Below are positions 1,000 through 8,083 of a DNA stretch of 64,000 nt, one piece after another. The stretch covers positions 248,001 to 312,000 of the forward strand of contig NZ_JASJOF010000001.1 of NCBI RefSeq assembly GCF_030163795.1, read 5' to 3'. The first letter of the stretch is position 1. The number at the start of each line of letters is the position of its first letter. The notes below the pieces were generated by a model. The model had not been told where the DNA came from. It did no database searches and worked only from the letters and a program-made list of their open reading frames with translations. Made by a program: the position numbers and the translations under genes. This DNA comes from Roseicyclus marinus (GTDB taxonomy: Bacteria > Pseudomonadota > Alphaproteobacteria > Rhodobacterales > Rhodobacteraceae).

Positions 1000-1191
1000 T
1001 CAGCCTCCGACGCGCATGCCGCGCATCCCGTCCAGCACGCCGAAGGCGGTGAGCAGCCACAGAACGACCGCGATCACGATCACGACGTTGAGGATGGATT
1101 TTATCTTTCCATCCATCGGGATGTAGGTGTTGACGAGCCAAAGCAGCACGCCGACGACGATCAGCGTCACGACAAGATTGATAAGCGGCAT
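1000..1191 (-). CDS. Thivi_2564-type small membrane protein
   Basis: A 63-residue protein with two hydrophobic helices joined by a short polar linker reading NTYIPMDGKIK. This linker and layout match the small Thivi_2564-type membrane proteins that are widespread in proteobacteria and of unknown function. An in-frame GTG three codons upstream is possible, but the ATG at 1191 has an AAAGG Shine-Dalgarno eight bases before it. A copy of the 5-4-5 palindrome (1282-1295) lies about 90 bases upstream, so the gene may share regulation with the other envelope genes here. Confidence 0.8.
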   Translation of the reverse strand: MPLINLVVTLIVVGVLLWLVNTYIPMDGKIKSILNVVIVIAVVLWLLTAFGVLDGMRGMRVGG

Positions 1192-1281: not shown

Positions 1282-1295
1282 CTGATCGGGGTTAG
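1282..1295. promoter_or_regulatory. Candidate Crp/Fnr-type operator (full match)
   Basis: CTGAT-CGGG-GTTAG, a 5-4-5 arrangement fitting a CTRAY-N4-RTYAG palindrome. It lies in the spacer between the Thivi_2564-type gene (about 90 bases upstream of its start) and the gene at 1455. It has the architecture of Crp/Fnr-family sites but not the classical FNR half-site TTGAT. Assignment to the regulator at 5705 is inference. Confidence 0.4.
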
Positions 1296-1454
1296 CGACG
1301 CGTCATCGCCACGCCGCTGATCTGCATCAGCCATCTGCCGAGCTTCTTCCCCTAGTGTTTCGTGGTGCGTAATCGGGCGGCCCTGTGCCGCCGTGTGACC
1401 AACACGGATCGCTGCGCGCGCTGTGCGCCACCCATCCGGGAGAGGGATATCGCA

Positions 1455-1877
1455 ATGTCCAGAATGGATTACCTGCGGCAGGGCGGCACGCCCTTCGATG
1501 GCTTTCTCTATGCACAATTGGGCGAGGACAGCACCGGCCATGAAGTCAGCGTTCTGTCCGCCCTCGCACGTCTGGGGTTGGATCCATGGGATGAGGCTGC
1601 CGCCTTGTCCGCCTTGCCGCGCGACAGTGCGGCGGCCCGTCTTGCGGGGCATCTGGCCCGTGTCAGCAGCCTACCCGACCTCGGGGCCGAAAGGACGACG
1701 ATCCCGCCGAGGTTGATCGCGCTCCTGCCGCACCGCCGCGACACGCGGGACGGTGCGGATCTGCGCAACGTGGTGACCGCGCGGTTGGGGCGCATCGGTC
1801 CGATGATTGCCCTGATCCTTGCGATCCTGTTCCTGCTGCAAACCCTTGGTTTCGGGCTGTCGGGCGCGGGCGGATAG
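1455..1877 (+). CDS. Hypothetical protein with C-terminal membrane anchor
   Basis: 140 residues, not recognised. The first 115 or so are hydrophilic and Ala/Leu-rich. A single hydrophobic segment near the C-terminus (about 118-136, IGPMIALILAILFLL) should anchor the protein in the membrane with most of the chain on one side. The ATG at 1455 follows a GGAGAGGGA purine run; the reading frame is open further upstream, but that part is Arg/Cys-rich and unlikely to be coding. It converges on the DUF3185-type gene 23 bases away. Confidence 0.6.
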   Translation: MSRMDYLRQGGTPFDGFLYAQLGEDSTGHEVSVLSALARLGLDPWDEAAALSALPRDSAAARLAGHLARVSSLPDLGAERTTIPPRLIALLPHRRDTRDGADLRNVVTARLGRIGPMIALILAILFLLQTLGFGLSGAGG

Positions 1878-1900
1878 CTCGCGCCCGGCCCTGTTGCCTG

Positions 1901-2113
1901 TCAGCTGCGGATGTAGCCGAGCGCCAACAGGCCGATGCCGGCGGCCGCGGCACCCACGCCTCCGATCAGGTACCACATGGTGTTGCCGGTATAGCGGCCG
2001 GTCAGAGCCTCACTCATCTGGTCCATCGGCGTGGTCGAGGCGCGCCATGCGAAAAACAGCAAAAGGGCACCGATCGCGAGCGCGACGAGCCCGAGGATGT
2101 TCGACTGTGTCAT
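1901..2113 (-). CDS. DUF3185-type small membrane protein
   Basis: 70 residues with two transmembrane helices (about 6-23 and 47-66) separated by a polar stretch ending in NTMWYLIGG. This pattern is characteristic of the DUF3185 family of small inner-membrane proteins, function unknown. The ATG at 2113 has an AAGGATC ribosome site seven bases upstream; the frame continues 34 codons further but without family similarity. It diverges from the OmpA-family gene at 2377, with a motif copy (2232-2245) in the shared spacer. Confidence 0.75.
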   Translation of the reverse strand: MTQSNILGLVALAIGALLLFFAWRASTTPMDQMSEALTGRYTGNTMWYLIGGVGAAAAGIGLLALGYIRS

Positions 2114-2231
2114 GAGATGATCCTTGGATGGGGCGATGTCGCCCAAAGGGCAGGACAGGCGGCCGTGCCGGTTGGCGAGGGGCCGCCCAGCCTGTCGGAT
2201 CTTCATGTTGGCCATCGGCGGGCCCTTTGCA

Positions 2232-2245
2232 CTTACTTCGATCAG
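2232..2245. promoter_or_regulatory. Candidate Crp/Fnr-type operator (one mismatch)
   Basis: CTTAC-TTCG-ATCAG; on the minus strand this reads CTGAT-CGAA-GTAAG. It sits in the divergent spacer between the DUF3185-type gene and the OmpA-family gene, where one site could serve both. Confidence 0.35.
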
Positions 2246-2376
2246 TTCGGGCTGTGTGCGGTGACCCTATGGTCGAGCCCGAGACGGCTGGGCGGCGGGT
2301 GTGGTCGCGCCGTACACCCCGCAGGGCCATTCCGGCGCGGCGGCGATCCCGCGCGCATTGTCAGAAAGGCAGCAGC

Positions 2377-3951
2377 ATGACCCCTCATATCCTGCGCTCC
2401 ACCACGGCTGTCGTTCTGGCCATCGCCCTCCTGCAACCGGCCCAGATCCGCGCCCAGACCTGCGCGGAGGTGGAGCCAGCAGGGGAGAGCGATGTACAGG
2501 CGCCCACCGTGGAAACCGTGGACCCGACCCCAGAGGAAATCTGCGCCGAAGCCGGCATCACGGACCCGCTGGCCTGTTCTGACCACATCCGCCTGTGCGA
2601 GGCCGAGGCCTTGGCCGCCGAACAACTGGCGGTAGAGGCGGAACTGGCCGCGGAGGCGGCTGCTGCGATGGCCGTAGCGGAGGATGCAGCGGCACAGGCA
2701 GAGATCGCCGCCGAGGCGGCGGAAGCCGAAGCGACCCTTGCCGCGGAGGCTGAGGCTACTGCGGAGGCGGAACGAGAGGCCGCGACGGCGGAGGCGGAAG
2801 CAGCCGCAGCGCTGGCCGCGGATACCGGCGCCGGGCAAAGCTGCCTGGCCGAGACAATCGGCGCCGATGGGGCCGTGATCTGCGTGGACGCGATCACCCC
2901 CGACACCGTCTTGGCCCTTGGCGAGGATCCGGCGCGCGACGCCGAGGCAGGGGCAGGGGCCGACGTTACGCTGGAAGCCATCACTGAGGACAGCGTGCGT
3001 GCGAGCGCGCAGGATTTCGAAGATTGGCGCGGAACGACGGGCGCATCTGCCGAGGCTGACAGCGGACCAAGCGATCTGGAACGCGCGGGCCTTGTGTTGC
3101 TCGGGGCGGCTGTGGTCGGCGCGATCCTCGCCAATGGCCAGCGCGTCGCGGCCAATACAGGTGATCGTATCATCGTGGTGGATGAGGACGGCAGCTATGA
3201 CGTTCTGCGCGACGACGATGCGCTGCTGCGCCAACCGGGGTCCGAGGTTCGGACCGAACGCTTCGCCGATGGCTCGACCCGTACGGTCGTGACGCGCGCG
3301 GATGGCACGCGCATCACCACAATCCGCGATACCAGCGGTCGCGCGCTGCGCCGCCTGCGGATCGACCCGGACGGGCGGGAACATGTTCTGATCGACGATA
3401 CCCGTAGCTCCGCGCCGGTGGTGCTTGCTGACCTGCCGCAGCCGGTGACGGTCGGCCAGGACGCGTTCGCGGCCACCGACACCGAGACGCTGCGCACCGT
3501 CCTGCTGGCGGCCGACCGTGTCGATCTGGGGCGCAGTTTCAGCCTGCGTCAGGTTCGCGACATCCAACCCGTGCGGGCACTTGCCCCCGAGATCACCCTG
3601 AGCGGCATCACCTTCGAGACCGGATCGGCCGCCATCGCGCAGTCGCAGGCCGAAGTCTTTGGGCAGCTGGGCCAGGTGATGCGCGCCCTGATCGAAATCG
3701 ACCCGACCGAGGTCTTTTTGATCGAGGGCTATACCGATGCGGTCGGTGCGGCGGGCTACAACCTTTTGTTGTCGGATCGCCGCGCGGAATCCGTCGCCTT
3801 GGCCTTCAGCGAATATTTCGACGTGCCCGCCGAGAATATGGTGGTCCAAGGCTATGGCGAAAATCACCTGCGGATCGCGACGCAAGCGCCCGAGCGTGAG
3901 AACCGCCGCGTCGCGGTGCGGCGGATCACACCGCTTTTGCGCGGCTATTGA
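2377..3951 (+). CDS. OmpA-family protein with Ala/Glu-rich coiled-coil
   Basis: A 524-residue exported envelope protein. Residues 1-26 form a Sec signal peptide ending IRA. Residues about 71-148 are an extremely Ala/Glu-rich helical stretch, probably a periplasmic coiled coil. A hydrophobic segment at about 234-252 may be a second membrane element. The C-terminal OmpA-like peptidoglycan-binding domain (about 405-520) contains GYTDAVG and SDRRAESV, where the Asp and Arg that grip diaminopimelate are expected. The ATG at 2377 is taken because the signal peptide follows at once; the purine-rich run before it (GAAAGGCAGCAGC) supports it. Role inferred: linking membrane and cell wall. Confidence 0.85.
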   Translation: MTPHILRSTTAVVLAIALLQPAQIRAQTCAEVEPAGESDVQAPTVETVDPTPEEICAEAGITDPLACSDHIRLCEAEALAAEQLAVEAELAAEAAAAMAVAEDAAAQAEIAAEAAEAEATLAAEAEATAEAEREAATAEAEAAAALAADTGAGQSCLAETIGADGAVICVDAITPDTVLALGEDPARDAEAGAGADVTLEAITEDSVRASAQDFEDWRGTTGASAEADSGPSDLERAGLVLLGAAVVGAILANGQRVAANTGDRIIVVDEDGSYDVLRDDDALLRQPGSEVRTERFADGSTRTVVTRADGTRITTIRDTSGRALRRLRIDPDGREHVLIDDTRSSAPVVLADLPQPVTVGQDAFAATDTETLRTVLLAADRVDLGRSFSLRQVRDIQPVRALAPEITLSGITFETGSAAIAQSQAEVFGQLGQVMRALIEIDPTEVFLIEGYTDAVGAAGYNLLLSDRRAESVALAFSEYFDVPAENMVVQGYGENHLRIATQAPERENRRVAVRRITPLLRGY

Positions 3952-3979
3952 GCCCGCTGCCCCACAATCGCGCGACGCA

Positions 3980-3993
3980 CTGATCCATGTTGC
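3980..3993. promoter_or_regulatory. Candidate Crp/Fnr-type operator (weak)
   Basis: CTGAT-CCAT-GTTGC, with the first half-site exact and two mismatches in the second. It is about 80 bases upstream of the tiny membrane protein gene at 4072, which begins a likely three-gene operon. Confidence 0.2.
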
Positions 3994-4071
3994 GGACAGG
4001 CGCCCCCGGATCGGCAGGATGATCGCGACAGGGCGGATCTGCCCGACACGCTTCAACACAAAGGACGCGAC

Positions 4072-4146
4072 ATGAACCAGATTATCTACATCGTCGGCCT
4101 GATCGTGGTCGTGGTCGTCATCTTGGGGTTTTTCGGCCTGCGCTAG
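4072..4146 (+). CDS. 24-residue single-helix membrane protein
   Basis: A very small gene encoding one hydrophobic helix flanked by MNQ at the start and LR at the end (sequence opens MNQIIYIVGL). It has a good AAGGACG ribosome site just before the ATG. Proteins of this form (single helix of about 24 residues ending FFGLR) recur in Rhodobacteraceae, to my recollection. Function unknown. It lies 87 bases upstream of the DUF883-type gene, probably in the same transcript. Confidence 0.6.
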   Translation: MNQIIYIVGLIVVVVVILGFFGLR

Positions 4147-4233
4147 TGCCGTGGCTCTTGCGATGTCGTCCCGCCCGGTTGGATGTGAGCCCCGGCACGT
4201 TCCGGCGCATTTGAAGAAGACGAGGATTTTGCC

Positions 4234-4503
4234 GTGAACGCCTCCATCACAAAAGACAATAACCCCTCCGAGGACGACCTGAGCCACCAACTCGAGGTGT
4301 TACGGGCGGATGTTGCGAAACTTGTCTCGACCCTGTCGGACGACCTGTCTGACGGTATTGGCAAGGCGGGCCGCCAGATCGGGCAGACCGGCCGTGACGC
4401 GCGCACGACCGCCACCAGCACGGTGCTGGACCATCCGCTAGCAGCGGTCGGCATTGCCGTGGGTGTGGGTGTGCTGCTGGGCCTTGTCGCGCGCAAGGGC
4501 TGA
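4234..4503 (+). CDS. DUF883 (ElaB/YqjD-type) membrane-anchored protein
   Basis: 89 residues: an amphipathic helical N-terminal two-thirds followed by a C-terminal helix ending in GLVARKG. This is the layout of the DUF883 family (ElaB, YqjD, YgaM), inner-membrane proteins that in E. coli bind ribosomes in stationary phase. The ribosome-binding role is known only for the E. coli members. It is followed seven bases later by a holin-like membrane protein, the same pairing as yqjD-yqjE. Confidence 0.8.
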   Translation: MNASITKDNNPSEDDLSHQLEVLRADVAKLVSTLSDDLSDGIGKAGRQIGQTGRDARTTATSTVLDHPLAAVGIAVGVGVLLGLVARKG

Positions 4504-4509
4504 GCACCC

Positions 4510-4896
4510 ATGGGTCTGCCGCTGTTGGAGCCACTGCGCGAGGCCGCCCGCAAAGCCGTGAGCGGAGCGGGCGAGCGGGTCATGACCATGCTTGTCACGC
4601 TGGTGCTTGCGGGCTTGTCCGCGGGACTTGTGCTGTCGGCGGGGTTGGTGGTTTTGTCGCGCGCGATCGGCTTTCCGCTGGCGGCGGTTCTGATCGGTGC
4701 GGTCTTTGCCCTCATGGCACTGATTGTCCATTTTGCAGGCCGTGTGCGCGCCAAGCGCCGGGCCAAGCGGTTTGAGCGTGCGGCCGACAGAGCGGCGGCG
4801 GATCTTGCGCTGGCTGCCACATTGGTCCGCTCTGCCCGGCCGCTTCTGCCCTTTGCGGCCTTCCTTGGGGCCTTTTGGCTGACTTGGCGGAGCTGA
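4510..4896 (+). CDS. Holin-X/YqjE-like membrane protein
   Basis: 128 residues with a short amphipathic N-terminus, two strong transmembrane helices (about 27-48 and 56-75), a basic KRRAKRFERA segment and a final hydrophobic stretch. This resembles the phage-holin-family/YqjE proteins that commonly follow DUF883 proteins. There is no sign of a phage here, so lysis is not implied. Adjacent to and probably co-transcribed with the DUF883-type gene. Confidence 0.7.
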   Translation: MGLPLLEPLREAARKAVSGAGERVMTMLVTLVLAGLSAGLVLSAGLVVLSRAIGFPLAAVLIGAVFALMALIVHFAGRVRAKRRAKRFERAADRAAADLALAATLVRSARPLLPFAAFLGAFWLTWRS

Positions 4897-4923
4897 AGAC
4901 GCCGTCACCGTTTCGGCCCCGGA

Positions 4924-4937
4924 CTGATGCAGGTTAG
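4924..4937. promoter_or_regulatory. Candidate Crp/Fnr-type operator (full match)
   Basis: CTGAT-GCAG-GTTAG, an exact match to the proposed 5-4-5 motif, in the spacer after the holin-like gene and about 200 bases upstream of the three-hairpin RNA candidate. The 11-mer GACTGATGCAG that includes it recurs at 5621 and 6850. Confidence 0.4.
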
Positions 4938-5124
4938 CGTCAGGGCATGGTGGATCAGCGATCATGTTCACCGGGTTGTGCGGCGTCGAGCAGGCGAGCC
5001 AACCCGATTGGCAGTCGTTGACCCTCTGACCCTGCCGAAAGGATCACCCATCGTGCCAAGATCAGCCTCAAAGCGGGATCGGGGCGAGGCCACCAGGATA
5101 GACGGCTGACATGAGGCACCGGAG

Positions 5125-5252
5125 GCCGAAGCAAAAACCGCCGATGCCCTGTTTTGCAAGATGGTTCGGCTCTGCGAGAGATGGCCTGAGCAAGGGTAAC
5201 TCTCGCTGCCGCAACGGCCCCGCCGTCACGTACCTCGGGCGGCGGGGTTTTT
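5125..5252 (+). ncRNA. Candidate small RNA with three stem-loops
   Basis: In the gene-free stretch 4897-5292, three hairpins follow in order on the plus strand. GCAAAA (5131-5136) pairs with TTTTGC (5152-5157). GCGAGAG (5174-5180) pairs perfectly with CTCTCGC (5200-5206). CCCCGCCG (5218-5225) pairs with CGGCGGGG (5240-5247) and is followed by five T. No plausible protein is encoded. The last hairpin must end a plus-strand transcript, because the T run is only on that side and the flanking gene is on the opposite strand. The 5' end is a guess; the transcript could instead be a long 3' UTR of the holin-like operon. Confidence 0.45.
5218..5252 (+). terminator. Rho-independent terminator
   Basis: An eight-base-pair GC-only stem (5218-5225 with 5240-5247) around a 14-base loop, followed by TTTTT. 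It is directional: on the minus strand no T run follows. Confidence 0.8.
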
Positions 5253-5292
5253 CTGTCTTGTGGACAAGCCGTGACCTTTGCGGCGCGAGGGT

Positions 5293-5526
5293 TCAGGGCC
5301 GTCGCACGGAATTTCCGCCTGCAATAATCCCGTTGATCAGCTCTGCGACCGCCTTGTGCATCTCGGCCTGATCCGCACCGGGCGCAAATTCATGGGCGTT
5401 GGCGGCGTCGCGCAGGATGCCGACGATTTCCCGCTCAGGTAAAATCTTGCCATCGTTCAAAGCCAGAAGAAGCGATTCACAGATCGAGAGAGCGGCGGTT
5501 CCAGCGATATCGGGGGGCACGGGCAT
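5293..5526 (-). CDS. Hypothetical protein (Rhodobacteraceae-type)
   Basis: 77 residues, soluble and helical, with recognisable phrases SICESLLLALND and REIVGILRDAA that I associate with a conserved, uncharacterised Rhodobacteraceae protein. The ATG at 5526 is the most likely start; the frame is open upstream, but the added residues look non-coding. It diverges from the Crp/Fnr-type regulator gene with a motif copy (5623-5636) between them. Confidence 0.6.
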   Translation of the reverse strand: MPVPPDIAGTAALSICESLLLALNDGKILPEREIVGILRDAANAHEFAPGADQAEMHKAVAELINGIIAGGNSVRRP

Positions 5527-5622
5527 GATCGGTATCGCTTTCGGTTCAAGGAGGGTGAGAGCGGTCTGGTCCGCTCTGGATCGGAATGCCTCGCCACAAT
5601 GGGCGAAATCGCGTATCATCGA

Positions 5623-5636
5623 CTGATGCAGAGCAG
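5623..5636. promoter_or_regulatory. Candidate Crp/Fnr-type operator (autoregulatory position)
   Basis: CTGAT-GCAG-AGCAG, one mismatch from CTRAY-N4-RTYAG. It lies in the 178-base divergent spacer between the hypothetical gene at 5526 and the regulator gene at 5705, so the regulator could control itself. Confidence 0.3.
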
Positions 5637-5704
5637 CATGGTGCAGATTTCCCCCGCTAGAAGTGGGGTGATTGCATTCGCCCTGGCACATGAGGGACCC
5701 AGAG

Positions 5705-6436
5705 ATGTTGACCCTCCAAAGCCCGTTGACCAGCAAATTGTCGGCCTATGTCGCCTTGTCGGCCAGCGATCTCGACACGCTCGCCCGATTTCATCGAAGG
5801 CGACGGATCTTTCAGGCCGGCCATGAACTGATCCATGAGGGCCAGAAGAACCAATCGGCCTTTGTCCTCGCGGAGGGTTGGGCCTGTTCCTACAAGCTTT
5901 TGCCCGATGGCGAACGCCAGATCGTGGATTTCCAGATTCCCGGCGATTTCCTGGGGCTGCGCAGCATCTTGTTCCGCACCTCCGACCATAGTGTCGAGGC
6001 GGTGACGCAGATAGAAGCCTCCGAGGTGCTGGCCTCCGATATCCTCGACAGTTTCGCCCATGCGCCACGACTTGCGACGGCGGTTCTGTGGGCGGCCTCG
6101 CGCGACGAAGCGATGGTGGTGGAACATCTTGTCAACCTGGGTCGGCGTTCCGCCGATATCCGTATGGCGCATTTCCTTTTGGAATTGGGCGCGCGCCTGC
6201 GGTTGGTCGGGGTCGGAGATCCCGCGGGGTTCGACTGCCCGCTGACGCAGTATCATCTGGCCGATGTGTTGGGTCTGAGCGCGGTGCATGTAAACCGCGT
6301 GCTTCGGCATTTGCGCGAAGAGGGGCTGGTCACGTTCCAGAAGGGCCGCGTCGAATTCGACGACATGGCGCGTCTGACGCGCATGGCGGGCTTTGACCCC
6401 GAATATCTGGATCAGACGCGCCCGTTGCTGCCCTGA
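5705..6436 (+). CDS. Crp/Fnr-family transcriptional regulator
   Basis: 243 residues. A cyclic-nucleotide-binding-like beta-roll (about 25-115, with GHELIHEGQ and PGDFLGL) is followed by a dimerisation helix and a winged helix-turn-helix (about 180-215) whose recognition helix reads SAVHVNRVLRHL. The FNR cysteine cluster is absent, so it is not an oxygen-sensing [4Fe-4S] FNR. The conserved Arg of the recognition helix is kept (VNR), but the FNR/CRP specificity Glu is replaced, which predicts a non-standard half-site. Start at 5705 after GAGGGACCCAGAG; a start at 5690 is possible. Ligand unknown. Inference: it governs the envelope/stress genes around it. Confidence 0.85.
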   Translation: MLTLQSPLTSKLSAYVALSASDLDTLARFHRRRRIFQAGHELIHEGQKNQSAFVLAEGWACSYKLLPDGERQIVDFQIPGDFLGLRSILFRTSDHSVEAVTQIEASEVLASDILDSFAHAPRLATAVLWAASRDEAMVVEHLVNLGRRSADIRMAHFLLELGARLRLVGVGDPAGFDCPLTQYHLADVLGLSAVHVNRVLRHLREEGLVTFQKGRVEFDDMARLTRMAGFDPEYLDQTRPLLP

Positions 6437-6490
6437 TCACCCGCCCCGAGATGCGTATCCCGGGGAGAGTTCTTCAAAGGGCGGGGACCG

Positions 6491-6685
6491 TCAGACGAGC
6501 GCGTGACGCGCCGCATCGAGTTCGCGGTTGCAATCGGCATCCTTGTTTTCGTCTCGTGCCTTTTGCGCCGCCTTGTAGTGGGTCAGGGACGCGTCCTTTT
6601 TCGGACCTGCGGGGGCTGCATCCCAGGCCGCCTTGACGGTTTTCATTTTCTCGGCCGTGGTCGGGTTGGGTGTCTTGTTGTCCAT
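6491..6685 (-). CDS. Small hydrophilic hypothetical protein
   Basis: 64 residues, highly charged, no membrane segment (contains KDASLTHYKAAQKARDEN). Not recognised. A strong AAAGGAC ribosome site stands seven bases before the ATG, which supports translation. A weak copy of the 5-4-5 motif lies at 6852-6865, about 170 bases upstream. Confidence 0.6.
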   Translation of the reverse strand: MDNKTPNPTTAEKMKTVKAAWDAAPAGPKKDASLTHYKAAQKARDENKDADCNRELDAARHALV

Positions 6686-6851
6686 GAGAGTCGTCCTTTC
6701 CAGATCTGCCAGAGCGGGCGTAGCAGCCCCGCACGAGGGGCTGGTTTGTCCAGCCGCCCGACAAGGCCGCTGCGCGAGACTCGAACCGATCGATCAACGG
6801 CGAGGTAGTCTGCCGTCTTGTTGACCATGCACGAGACAGGCGGACGGGGGA

Positions 6852-6865
6852 CTGATGCAGATCGG
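6852..6865. promoter_or_regulatory. Candidate Crp/Fnr-type operator (one mismatch)
   Basis: CTGAT-GCAG-ATCGG, in the spacer upstream of the minus-strand gene at 6685 and just before the terminator of the OmpA lipoprotein gene. Confidence 0.3.
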
Positions 6866-6907
6866 TGGCGCGACGTGTTTTTGAAGAAACCGCTTGGCAC
6901 CGGACAG

Positions 6908-6934
6908 AAAAAGGGCCGGGAATTGCCCCGGCCC
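6908..6934 (-). terminator. Rho-independent terminator of the OmpA lipoprotein gene
   Basis: On the minus strand, GGGCCGGG and CCCGGCCC (6927-6934 and 6913-6920) form an eight-pair stem with a six-base loop, followed by TTTTT (6908-6912). It is 28 bases beyond the stop codon of the gene at 6962. Confidence 0.85.
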
Positions 6935-6961
6935 ATCTTGGCTCGCTTGTGAGATTGCGCG

Positions 6962-7603
6962 TCAATTCGGAGTGATGACGATCTCGACACGCCGGTTCTG
7001 CGCCCGCCCGGCCGCCGTGGCATTCGAGGCGATGGGTTCGTAAAAGCCGCGGCCAGACACCACGATGCGTCCGGCATCGGTTCCCGTCGCGATCAGCTCG
7101 CGTGCGACGGCAAGGGCGCGGTCCTGGCTGAGTTGGGCATTGTAGGCGGCGCCGCCCACATTGTCGGTATGGCCCAAGACACGGACGTGCGTGTTGGGAT
7201 GGCGCCGCAAGCTGTCGGAGACGGCCCGCAGCGAGGGACGGAAGCCGGGGTCGACGACCGACGATCCGGTGCGGAAGGTCACGCCCTCGGGAAGGATGAC
7301 CCGCAGGTCGCTGCCGGTATTGGTGATCATCGCCCCCGATCCGGCCAGCGATTGTTGCAACTCACGCTCCTGCGTTTGCAACTGCGTGCCGATCGCGCCG
7401 CCGATGGCTGCGCCGACTGCGGTGCCGATCACCGTCGCCCGGGTATCGCCGCCGATGATCTGCCCGGCAGCGGCACCGGTCAGACCGCCGATGACAGCGC
7501 CGGTGCCGGGTTGGTAATTGGTGCCGTCGGGGTTGGCACAACTCGCCAGCGCCAGTGTGCCCGCAACAAGCGCGATCGAGATCCTGGTTCCATGATGGCC
7601 CAT
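6962..7603 (-). CDS. OmpA-family lipoprotein with glycine zipper
   Basis: 213 residues. A lipoprotein signal peptide ends in the lipobox LALASC, so the mature protein should be lipid-anchored at Cys. A glycine-zipper segment follows (about 36-75, GAVIGGLTGAAAG and GAAIGGAIG). The C-terminal OmpA domain has FRTGSS, GHTDNVGG and LSQDRALAVA, with the Asp and Arg needed to bind peptidoglycan. This is the YiaD-like arrangement. The ATG at 7603 has AAGGAAAGGA upstream; the longer frame lacks a signal peptide. It probably tethers the outer membrane to the cell wall. Confidence 0.88.
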   Translation of the reverse strand: MGHHGTRISIALVAGTLALASCANPDGTNYQPGTGAVIGGLTGAAAGQIIGGDTRATVIGTAVGAAIGGAIGTQLQTQERELQQSLAGSGAMITNTGSDLRVILPEGVTFRTGSSVVDPGFRPSLRAVSDSLRRHPNTHVRVLGHTDNVGGAAYNAQLSQDRALAVARELIATGTDAGRIVVSGRGFYEPIASNATAAGRAQNRRVEIVITPN

Positions 7604-8083
7604 CTTGCGTCCTTTCCTTGGCGGGGCCTGCGCGGAACGCGGCAGGCGGTGACGCCAGACAGGTTTGGCATACCACGGCGGCCAACAGGGCTTGCTGATC
7701 TGGGTAATGACGGTGGTGAGCCCAAGGGCAGGCAATCGCCCGCCCGGATCGGCGCGACACGGACGGAGGCCACGAAGGAGCGGATCGTGCAGGCACGCTT
7801 CGGAGATCTCCTGCGTGAACCGGGCGGGCCGGAGGATGGTGAAATCGAGGCCGGATTACGCACCAATGCTTTGCCCAACAGGGCATGATGGTCGCAGCAG
7901 CCCGAGGTCGCGGCGGGTTTCCTTTGTCAGGATCCGGACCCTCGTCCCGTGCCCCGAGAGAGGCCTGTGGACGGTTCTCGCGCTGAGCGGGAGGCGACGG
8001 CGATGTCGGCCGTGGGCGTGGCGTTGCGGCGGCTGCCTGCTTGGTTCACGCGTCTGTCGGACAGGCCGCGCTTGACCCCGCTG
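7604..8083. other. Gene-poor stretch, no gene identified
   Basis: 480 bases. Several long open frames exist on both strands, but their products are Arg/Pro/Ser-rich and show no family features, so I treat them as high-GC chance frames. The only element I can point to is a weak motif copy (7695-7708). Confidence 0.5.
7695..7708. promoter_or_regulatory. Candidate Crp/Fnr-type operator (weak)
   Basis: CTGAT-CTGG-GTAAT, about 92 bases upstream of the OmpA lipoprotein start, the same distance as site 1282 from its gene. Two positions of the second half-site deviate. Confidence 0.2.

Follow-up and report, generated by a model that had tools for sequence, protein, structure and literature searches.

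FNR and FnrL, which use the operator TTGAT-N4-ATCAA, are the described systems nearest to a regulator and its sites in Roseicyclus marinus. The DNA considered here is a stretch of 64,000 nucleotides (contig NZ_JASJOF010000001.1, positions 248,001 to 312,000), called the window, and its first 8 kb carry a gene for a Crp/Fnr protein surrounded by recurrent sites of the type CTGAT-N4-ATCAG. This system shares with FNR and FnrL the superfamily, the 5-4-5 geometry, the TGAT core and the class II position of the operator. Unlike them, it has no Fe-S cysteine cluster, carries Val194, has C instead of T as the outer base of the half-site and is associated with envelope and stress targets. FixK and FixK2 are cysteine-poor Crp/Fnr activators of alphaproteobacteria, as the present regulator may be, but the FixK score is under cut-off and the half-site differs. 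CrpK of Rhodobacter sphaeroides also lacks the Fe-S cysteines and belongs to the same bacterial order; its motif, however, is similar to that of FnrL, and its targets are photosynthesis and iron genes. E. coli CRP is alike in fold and class II activation, but its Arg180 and Glu181 have no equivalents here. We infer, with a probability of about 0.8, that the regulator acts through the CTGAT-N4-ATCAG sites as a class II activator of a local gene island and as a repressor of its own gene; binding, dimer formation and the sign of control are all read from sequence comparisons.

The regulator is encoded as follows (aa, amino acids; HTH, helix-turn-helix).

5705..6436, + strand: Crp/Fnr-family regulator, 243 aa, recognition helix SAVHVNRVLR (Pfam HTH_Crp_2 5e-17, cNMP_binding 1e-14)

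Both CRP/FNR superfamily domains (PF00027 and PF13545) score above cut-off, and the NCBIfam equivalog scores fall far under theirs (FnrL 70 of 300 bits, FixK 67.7 of 300, CRP 31.9 of 266). A first-pass annotation of this DNA had stated that the protein lacks the FNR cysteines and the Glu that reads TTGA, and both statements are correct. Only C61 and C178 are present in the 243 residues, and alignment to the FNR helix GLTVETISRLL places Val194 at the position of FNR Glu209, which is also that of CRP Glu181. In place of the FNR recognition trio Glu209-Ser212-Arg213 and TTGAT, the protein has Val194, Asn197 and Arg198, and the sites have CTGAT. Glu181 variants of CRP relax recognition of the half-site G base pair. 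The variation between CTGAT and CTAAC, in which A is tolerated at the third half-site position, fits the replacement of Glu by Val194. The nearest solved structures are Aliivibrio fischeri FNR, the best PDB match in sequence and fold, and Bradyrhizobium japonicum FixK2, the best match to the HTH. In a structure model the HTH is confident and the N-terminal sensor domain poor, and FNR and FixK2 are among the top fold matches.

The first-pass annotation had proposed an undescribed Crp/Fnr regulon based on seven 14-mers, and a direct sequence check found each of them: CTGATCGGGGTTAG at 1282, CTGATCGAAGTAAG at 2232 (minus strand), CTGATCCATGTTGC at 3980, CTGATGCAGGTTAG at 4924, CTGATGCAGAGCAG at 5623, CTGATGCAGATCGG at 6852 and CTGATCTGGGTAAT at 7695. 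Gene positions place all seven between genes, the 11-mer GACTGATGCAG does occur three times (4922, 5621 and 6850), and one site, operator 5623, lies in the regulator's own divergent spacer. Some points needed revision. CTGAT-N4-GTTAG had been called a palindrome, but the reverse complement of CTGAT is ATCAG, with which GTTAG agrees at 3 of 5 positions, so the symmetric form is CTGAT-N4-ATCAG. A perfect copy of this form, CTGATCTGCATCAG at 1317-1330, had been overlooked. The orientation was mostly inverted as well: CTAAC-N4-ATCAG points toward the gene. In their working orientation the operators of the window are these, with scores from the matrix described below.

1282..1295, - strand: operator CTAACCCCGATCAG; -10 TAGGGT (1254-1259) at 22 nucleotides (nt); score 22.5; kept in 9 of 10 loci
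1317..1330, + strand: perfect palindromic operator CTGATCTGCATCAG; -10 TAGTGT (1353-1358) at 22 nt; score 25.9, the highest of the region
2232..2245, + strand: operator CTTACTTCGATCAG; -10 TATGGT (2268-2273) at 22 nt; score 20.5
3980..3993, + strand: variant operator CTGATCCATGTTGC; 92 bp 5' of a 24-aa gene; under the matrix threshold
4924..4937, - strand: apparent relict operator CTAACCTGCATCAG, by comparison with relatives; -10 lost
5623..5636, no strand assigned: operator CTGATGCAGAGCAG, between the regulator and a divergent 77-aa gene
6852..6865, - strand: operator CCGATCTGCATCAG; -10 CATGGT (6824-6829) at 22 nt; score 21.1
7695..7708, - strand: operator ATTACCCAGATCAG; TATGCC (7667-7672) at 22 nt; score 14.6

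Conservation in relatives provides the main evidence for these sites. Of 149 family genomes, 32 (about one fifth) encode a close orthologue of the regulator, and a second set comprised 80 loci with flanks of up to 10 kb, nearly all from Rhodobacteraceae. The orthologues are 61-90% identical, and some reside on plasmids of Paracoccus, Roseibium, Phaeobacter, Leisingera and others. In G004, G024, G101 and G137 the regulator gene is present as two or three closely related copies per genome, some of which are only a few kb from one another, and these have their own copies of target genes. The operator, with at most one mismatch to CTGAT-N4-ATCAG, is kept in the regulator's spacer at 28 of 30 first-set loci and 67 of 80 second-set loci; 6 of 1450 shuffles attained the level seen in the first set. 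The conserved form in this spacer is CTGAT-N4-A[GT]CAG, mostly between -63 and -125. Over the operators in general, the distal half is mostly CTRAY and the proximal half mostly RTCAG.

The counts within the window are weaker. Three matches with at most one mismatch occur against 1.0 expected, 9 of 100 shuffles equal that number, and the CTGAT half alone is only 1.4-fold denser in the first 8 kb. Taken in isolation, these figures would suit a common half-site that recurs by chance, the genome being GC-rich. We consider the window statistics unimpressive by themselves and the conservation in relatives decisive; in view of the orthologous spacers, together with the promoter spacing and the matrix, intergenic and 95-aa results given below, the probability of a chance origin is negligible. 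The exact copies also cluster. CTGAT-N4-GTTAG occurs four times in the 3.62-Mb genome of the organism, three of them within 5.8 kb (chance about 3e-5); of these three, one is situated outside the window, 820 bp to its left (G000:C11:247180-247193). Across the 80 orthologous loci (1.30 Mb) the same pattern has 68 copies, whereas 100 permuted patterns average 1.1 (maximum 9), and 55 of the 68 copies are within 3 kb of the regulator. Strong sites number 84 per 100 kb beside the regulator but 3.5 per 100 kb at a distance of 8-10 kb, and at least three of them are present in 65 of 81 loci.

The position of the sites relative to the promoter points to activation. TANNNT, which resembles a -10, begins exactly 22 nt past CTAAC-N4-ATCAG in 39 of 71 sites, and each other spacing occurs 0 or 1 times. 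This placement sets the working orientation opposite to that first listed for most sites. It also centres the operator at -41.5, where class II activators bind. The spacing thus agrees with a class II promoter, in which an operator near -41.5 accompanies a sigma-70 -10 element, the start sites being predicted ones. A fixed distance of 22 nt to TANNNT might also be expected if the conserved sequence were instead recognised by an alternative sigma factor as part of its promoter. This explanation is very improbable: the element is two-fold symmetric, it is too far from the -10 to be a -35, the -10 itself resembles that of sigma-70, and at the regulator gene the same element stands on the other side of the -10. 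In the proposed class II mechanism, the regulator would bind CTGAT-N4-ATCAG and its variants as a dimer. The operator at about -41.5 would stand in for the -35, and RNA polymerase would be recruited by direct contact.

The arrangement at the regulator gene itself differs.

5591..5619, + strand: regulator promoter TCGCCA-N17-TATCAT, predicted start inside operator 5623-5636

Of 61 distinct orthologous spacers, 40 have a TANNNT whose first base lies exactly 9 nt 5' of the operator; in the window this element is the -10 TATCAT of the promoter above. Autorepression is suggested because the start site falls inside the operator, and the regulator most likely represses its own gene. On the divergent strand, 31 of the 61 spacers have TANNNT at offset 21, an arrangement that points to activation of the 77-aa gene. 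A regulator bound at 5623 would thereby cover its own start and repress itself while the divergent gene is activated.

A matrix of the operator plus the -10 was trained on the orthologous loci without the window, so the window serves as an independent check. At 13 bits or more it finds 497 matches in all loci, and the reversed matrix finds 8. In 104 kb around the window, the top scores all lie between -848 and 7708. One objection anticipated in the first-pass annotation was that the motif might be as frequent inside genes as between them. A simple gene caller assigned 79.5% of the bases to coding sequence, whereas 90% of the sites above 14 bits and 98% of those above 20 bits are intergenic. 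Elsewhere in the organism's own genome, high scores outside the island (L121-L131) are mostly inside long open frames, and the matrix alone overpredicts on a genome-wide scale. The sole strong match found there with a plausible target is 5' of a frameshifted relic of the 64-aa gene. Its operator and -10 are at G000:C25:108615-108656 (L120:1216-1257) and the relic runs from L120:1397; it is a decayed paralogue with an intact promoter. Genome-wide counts over the 149 genomes showed no visible tracking of the regulator, either by CTGAT-N4-ATCAG, which is too frequent by chance, or by CTGAT-N4-GTTAG, of which only the clustering near the regulator is informative. An unbiased search for gapped 5-mer pairs was swamped by the coding conservation of the regulator gene. 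The shared site around the regulator, proposed in the first-pass annotation, stands. The regulon appears to be nearly all local, and a genome-wide one is unsupported.

Presence and absence of the regulator provide a further comparison. A gene for a 95-aa protein, a target in the relatives, is present in 25 genomes, of which four lack the regulator. Its operator (score at least 17) is found in 25 of 26 regulator-positive loci and in 0 of 4 regulator-negative loci (Fisher p 2e-4), the latter reaching a best core score of 1.3 (n=4). The 64-aa target is present in 20 of the 149 genomes, and each of these 20 belongs to the 32 that encode the regulator (p 7e-17); the 63-aa target is too rare in the family sample for such a count. 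We regard the 95-aa comparison as the strongest evidence that the regulator itself, not a general factor, would use the site. It bears directly on the idea that the operators are bound by a different Crp/Fnr protein (FnrL or a second paralogue), the clustered regulator being only a neighbour or another client. CTGAT and the FNR/FnrL half-site TTGAT are one outer base apart, and genomes of this kind encode several Crp/Fnr proteins (two relatives checked). However, the four regulator-free genomes keep the 95-aa target without its operator, and site density is highest at the clustered regulator, which makes this idea distinctly unlikely. FnrL is also widespread in the family irrespective of the presence of the cluster, which counts against it as the binding protein. 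The link between the site and the clustered regulator, put forward in the first-pass annotation, is supported by spacer conservation, intergenic position and co-occurrence, from which we infer binding.

Several observations weigh against a regulator that both activates the island and represses itself through this site. At one 95-aa locus, L178, the regulator is present but the site is degraded. Part of the co-occurrence reflects linkage, because the targets lie next to the regulator, and the pattern test over the whole family is only moderately significant (9 of 32 against 11 of 117 genomes, p 0.015). Among ten homologues with less than 50% identity, one has a matching operator upstream; the same ten share V194, H195, N197 and R198, and helix and motif are not strictly tied. 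In 26 of 61 spacers TA is found at offset 22 on the regulator's side of its own operator, and the regulator may activate itself from a second promoter.

The genes assigned to the island in the window are the following.

1000..1191, - strand: 63-aa membrane protein of the Thivi_2564 family, putative target (NCBIfam NF041949 6e-23)
1455..1877, + strand: 140-aa protein, function unassigned, putative target; site in 31 of 36 loci
2377..3951, + strand: OmpA-domain protein, 524 aa, putative target (Pfam OmpA 9e-14); site in 9 of 12 loci
4072..4896, + strand: probable operon, putative target, of a 24-aa membrane peptide (4072-4146), a DUF883-type protein (4234-4503) and a holin-like protein (4510-4896)
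5137..5250, + strand: remnant of a decayed small stress gene with a terminator; 80% identity to L038:9440-9564, frame broken
5293..5526, - strand: 77-aa protein, function unassigned, divergent partner of the regulator, predicted activation from 5623; -10 CATTGT at 5596-5601
6491..6685, - strand: 64-aa protein, function unassigned, putative target; site in 38 of 39 loci
6962..7603, - strand: glycine-zipper OmpA-like lipoprotein, putative target (Pfam OmpA 1e-20, Gly-zipper_Omp); site in 17 of 19 loci

Sites 1282, 6852 and 7695 are directed at minus-strand genes, 2232 at the plus-strand OmpA gene and 1317 at the 140-aa gene. The regulator would switch on the 63-aa, 140-aa, 77-aa and 64-aa genes, the two OmpA-type genes and the operon of the 24-aa, DUF883 and holin-like genes. 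A gene left of the window for a protein with a B12-binding domain, with the operator CTAACCTGGATCAG upstream (G000:C11:247152-247193), would be activated as well; its product could be a light or redox regulator.

The target families keep the site across genera. It is present in 55 of the 69 loci that carry the 77-aa gene and, for other families, in 33 of 33 loci (95-aa), 9 of 9 (SH3), 7 of 9 (AI-2E transporter) and 9 of 10 (63-aa Thivi_2564); DUF3185, fatty-acid desaturase and other families carry it less often. At site 3980, nearly every locus that has the 24-aa gene keeps CTGATCCATGTTG in front of it, at -86 to -95. Site 4924 has a different history. In relatives it drives an AI-2E transporter on the minus strand and faces csbD on the plus strand. 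Here it looks like a relict, because both genes are missing and the -10 is lost; around it, only a terminator and one more small gene with a broken frame are left. A small RNA at 4924-5250 was considered and rejected, as comparison identifies the remains of a small gene whose terminator is conserved; an Rfam search around 4924-5250 gave nothing near gathering score. On some plasmids the regulator copies adjoin plasmid-borne groEL (Paracoccus pPZ03, L152; Phaeobacter pP97_c, L153, there also with groES).

The 77-aa protein appears to be a conserved partner of a wider regulator family. Members of its family are also encoded divergently from distant Crp/Fnr regulators on plasmids of Azospirillum, Polymorphobacter and Indioceanicola, and weakly in Sphingomonas (L156, L158, L161, L163). 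In the regulator, C178 stands just before the HTH and is invariant in 81 of 81 orthologues, against 1 of 10 distant homologues. The position that aligns with Cys183 of FixK2 is three residues away. A thiol switch at C178, defining a redox- or envelope-stress-sensing Crp/Fnr class, with the 77-aa protein as a dedicated PipX-like co-regulator in a feedback pair, is a speculative and rather doubtful proposal.

A limited literature collection, in which several spellings were tried, did not contain the CTGAT-N4-ATCAG motif, and a search combining the target families gave no match. The regulator could still be the orthologue of a studied protein, RedB of R. capsulatus (rcc01561) or DnrB or DnrC of Dinoroseobacter shibae, in which case only the motif and the local regulon would be new. 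RedB, a protein of a relative, belongs, according to the literature, to a widely spread, formerly uncharacterised Crp/Fnr subgroup, and DnrB and DnrC are described as unexplained subgroup-B proteins amid hypothetical genes. R. capsulatus SP108 (L048) has an orthologue that is 81% identical, with several matching operators nearby. For RedB, however, the published motif is a 12-mer that is AT-rich and not palindromic; peaks occur within genes as well, the effects are weak, the targets are metabolic, and the RedB text mentions neither autoregulation nor OmpA. The 5-4-5 near-palindrome found here differs from the RedB motif. The Crp/Fnr matches above Pfam cut-off in SP108 also outnumber the five proteins reported for R. 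capsulatus. We consider identity with one of these proteins unlikely, and we describe the regulator and its regulon as new with the reservation that literature coverage was limited and provided that RedB is a different protein.

The comparison supplies a DNA motif, a layout of the promoter and a list of proposed targets for a Crp/Fnr subgroup that is as yet unstudied and that many chromosomes and plasmids of Rhodobacteraceae, and of some other alphaproteobacteria, encode. The proposed envelope-stress island joins the 77-, 64-, 95-, 140- and 63-aa proteins with CsbD, OmpA-type, SH3, DUF3185 and AI-2E proteins, and nearby GroEL genes would join it on some plasmids. The regulator may represent a natural example of changed half-site specificity in the FNR fold, with the Glu of the recognition helix replaced by Val.

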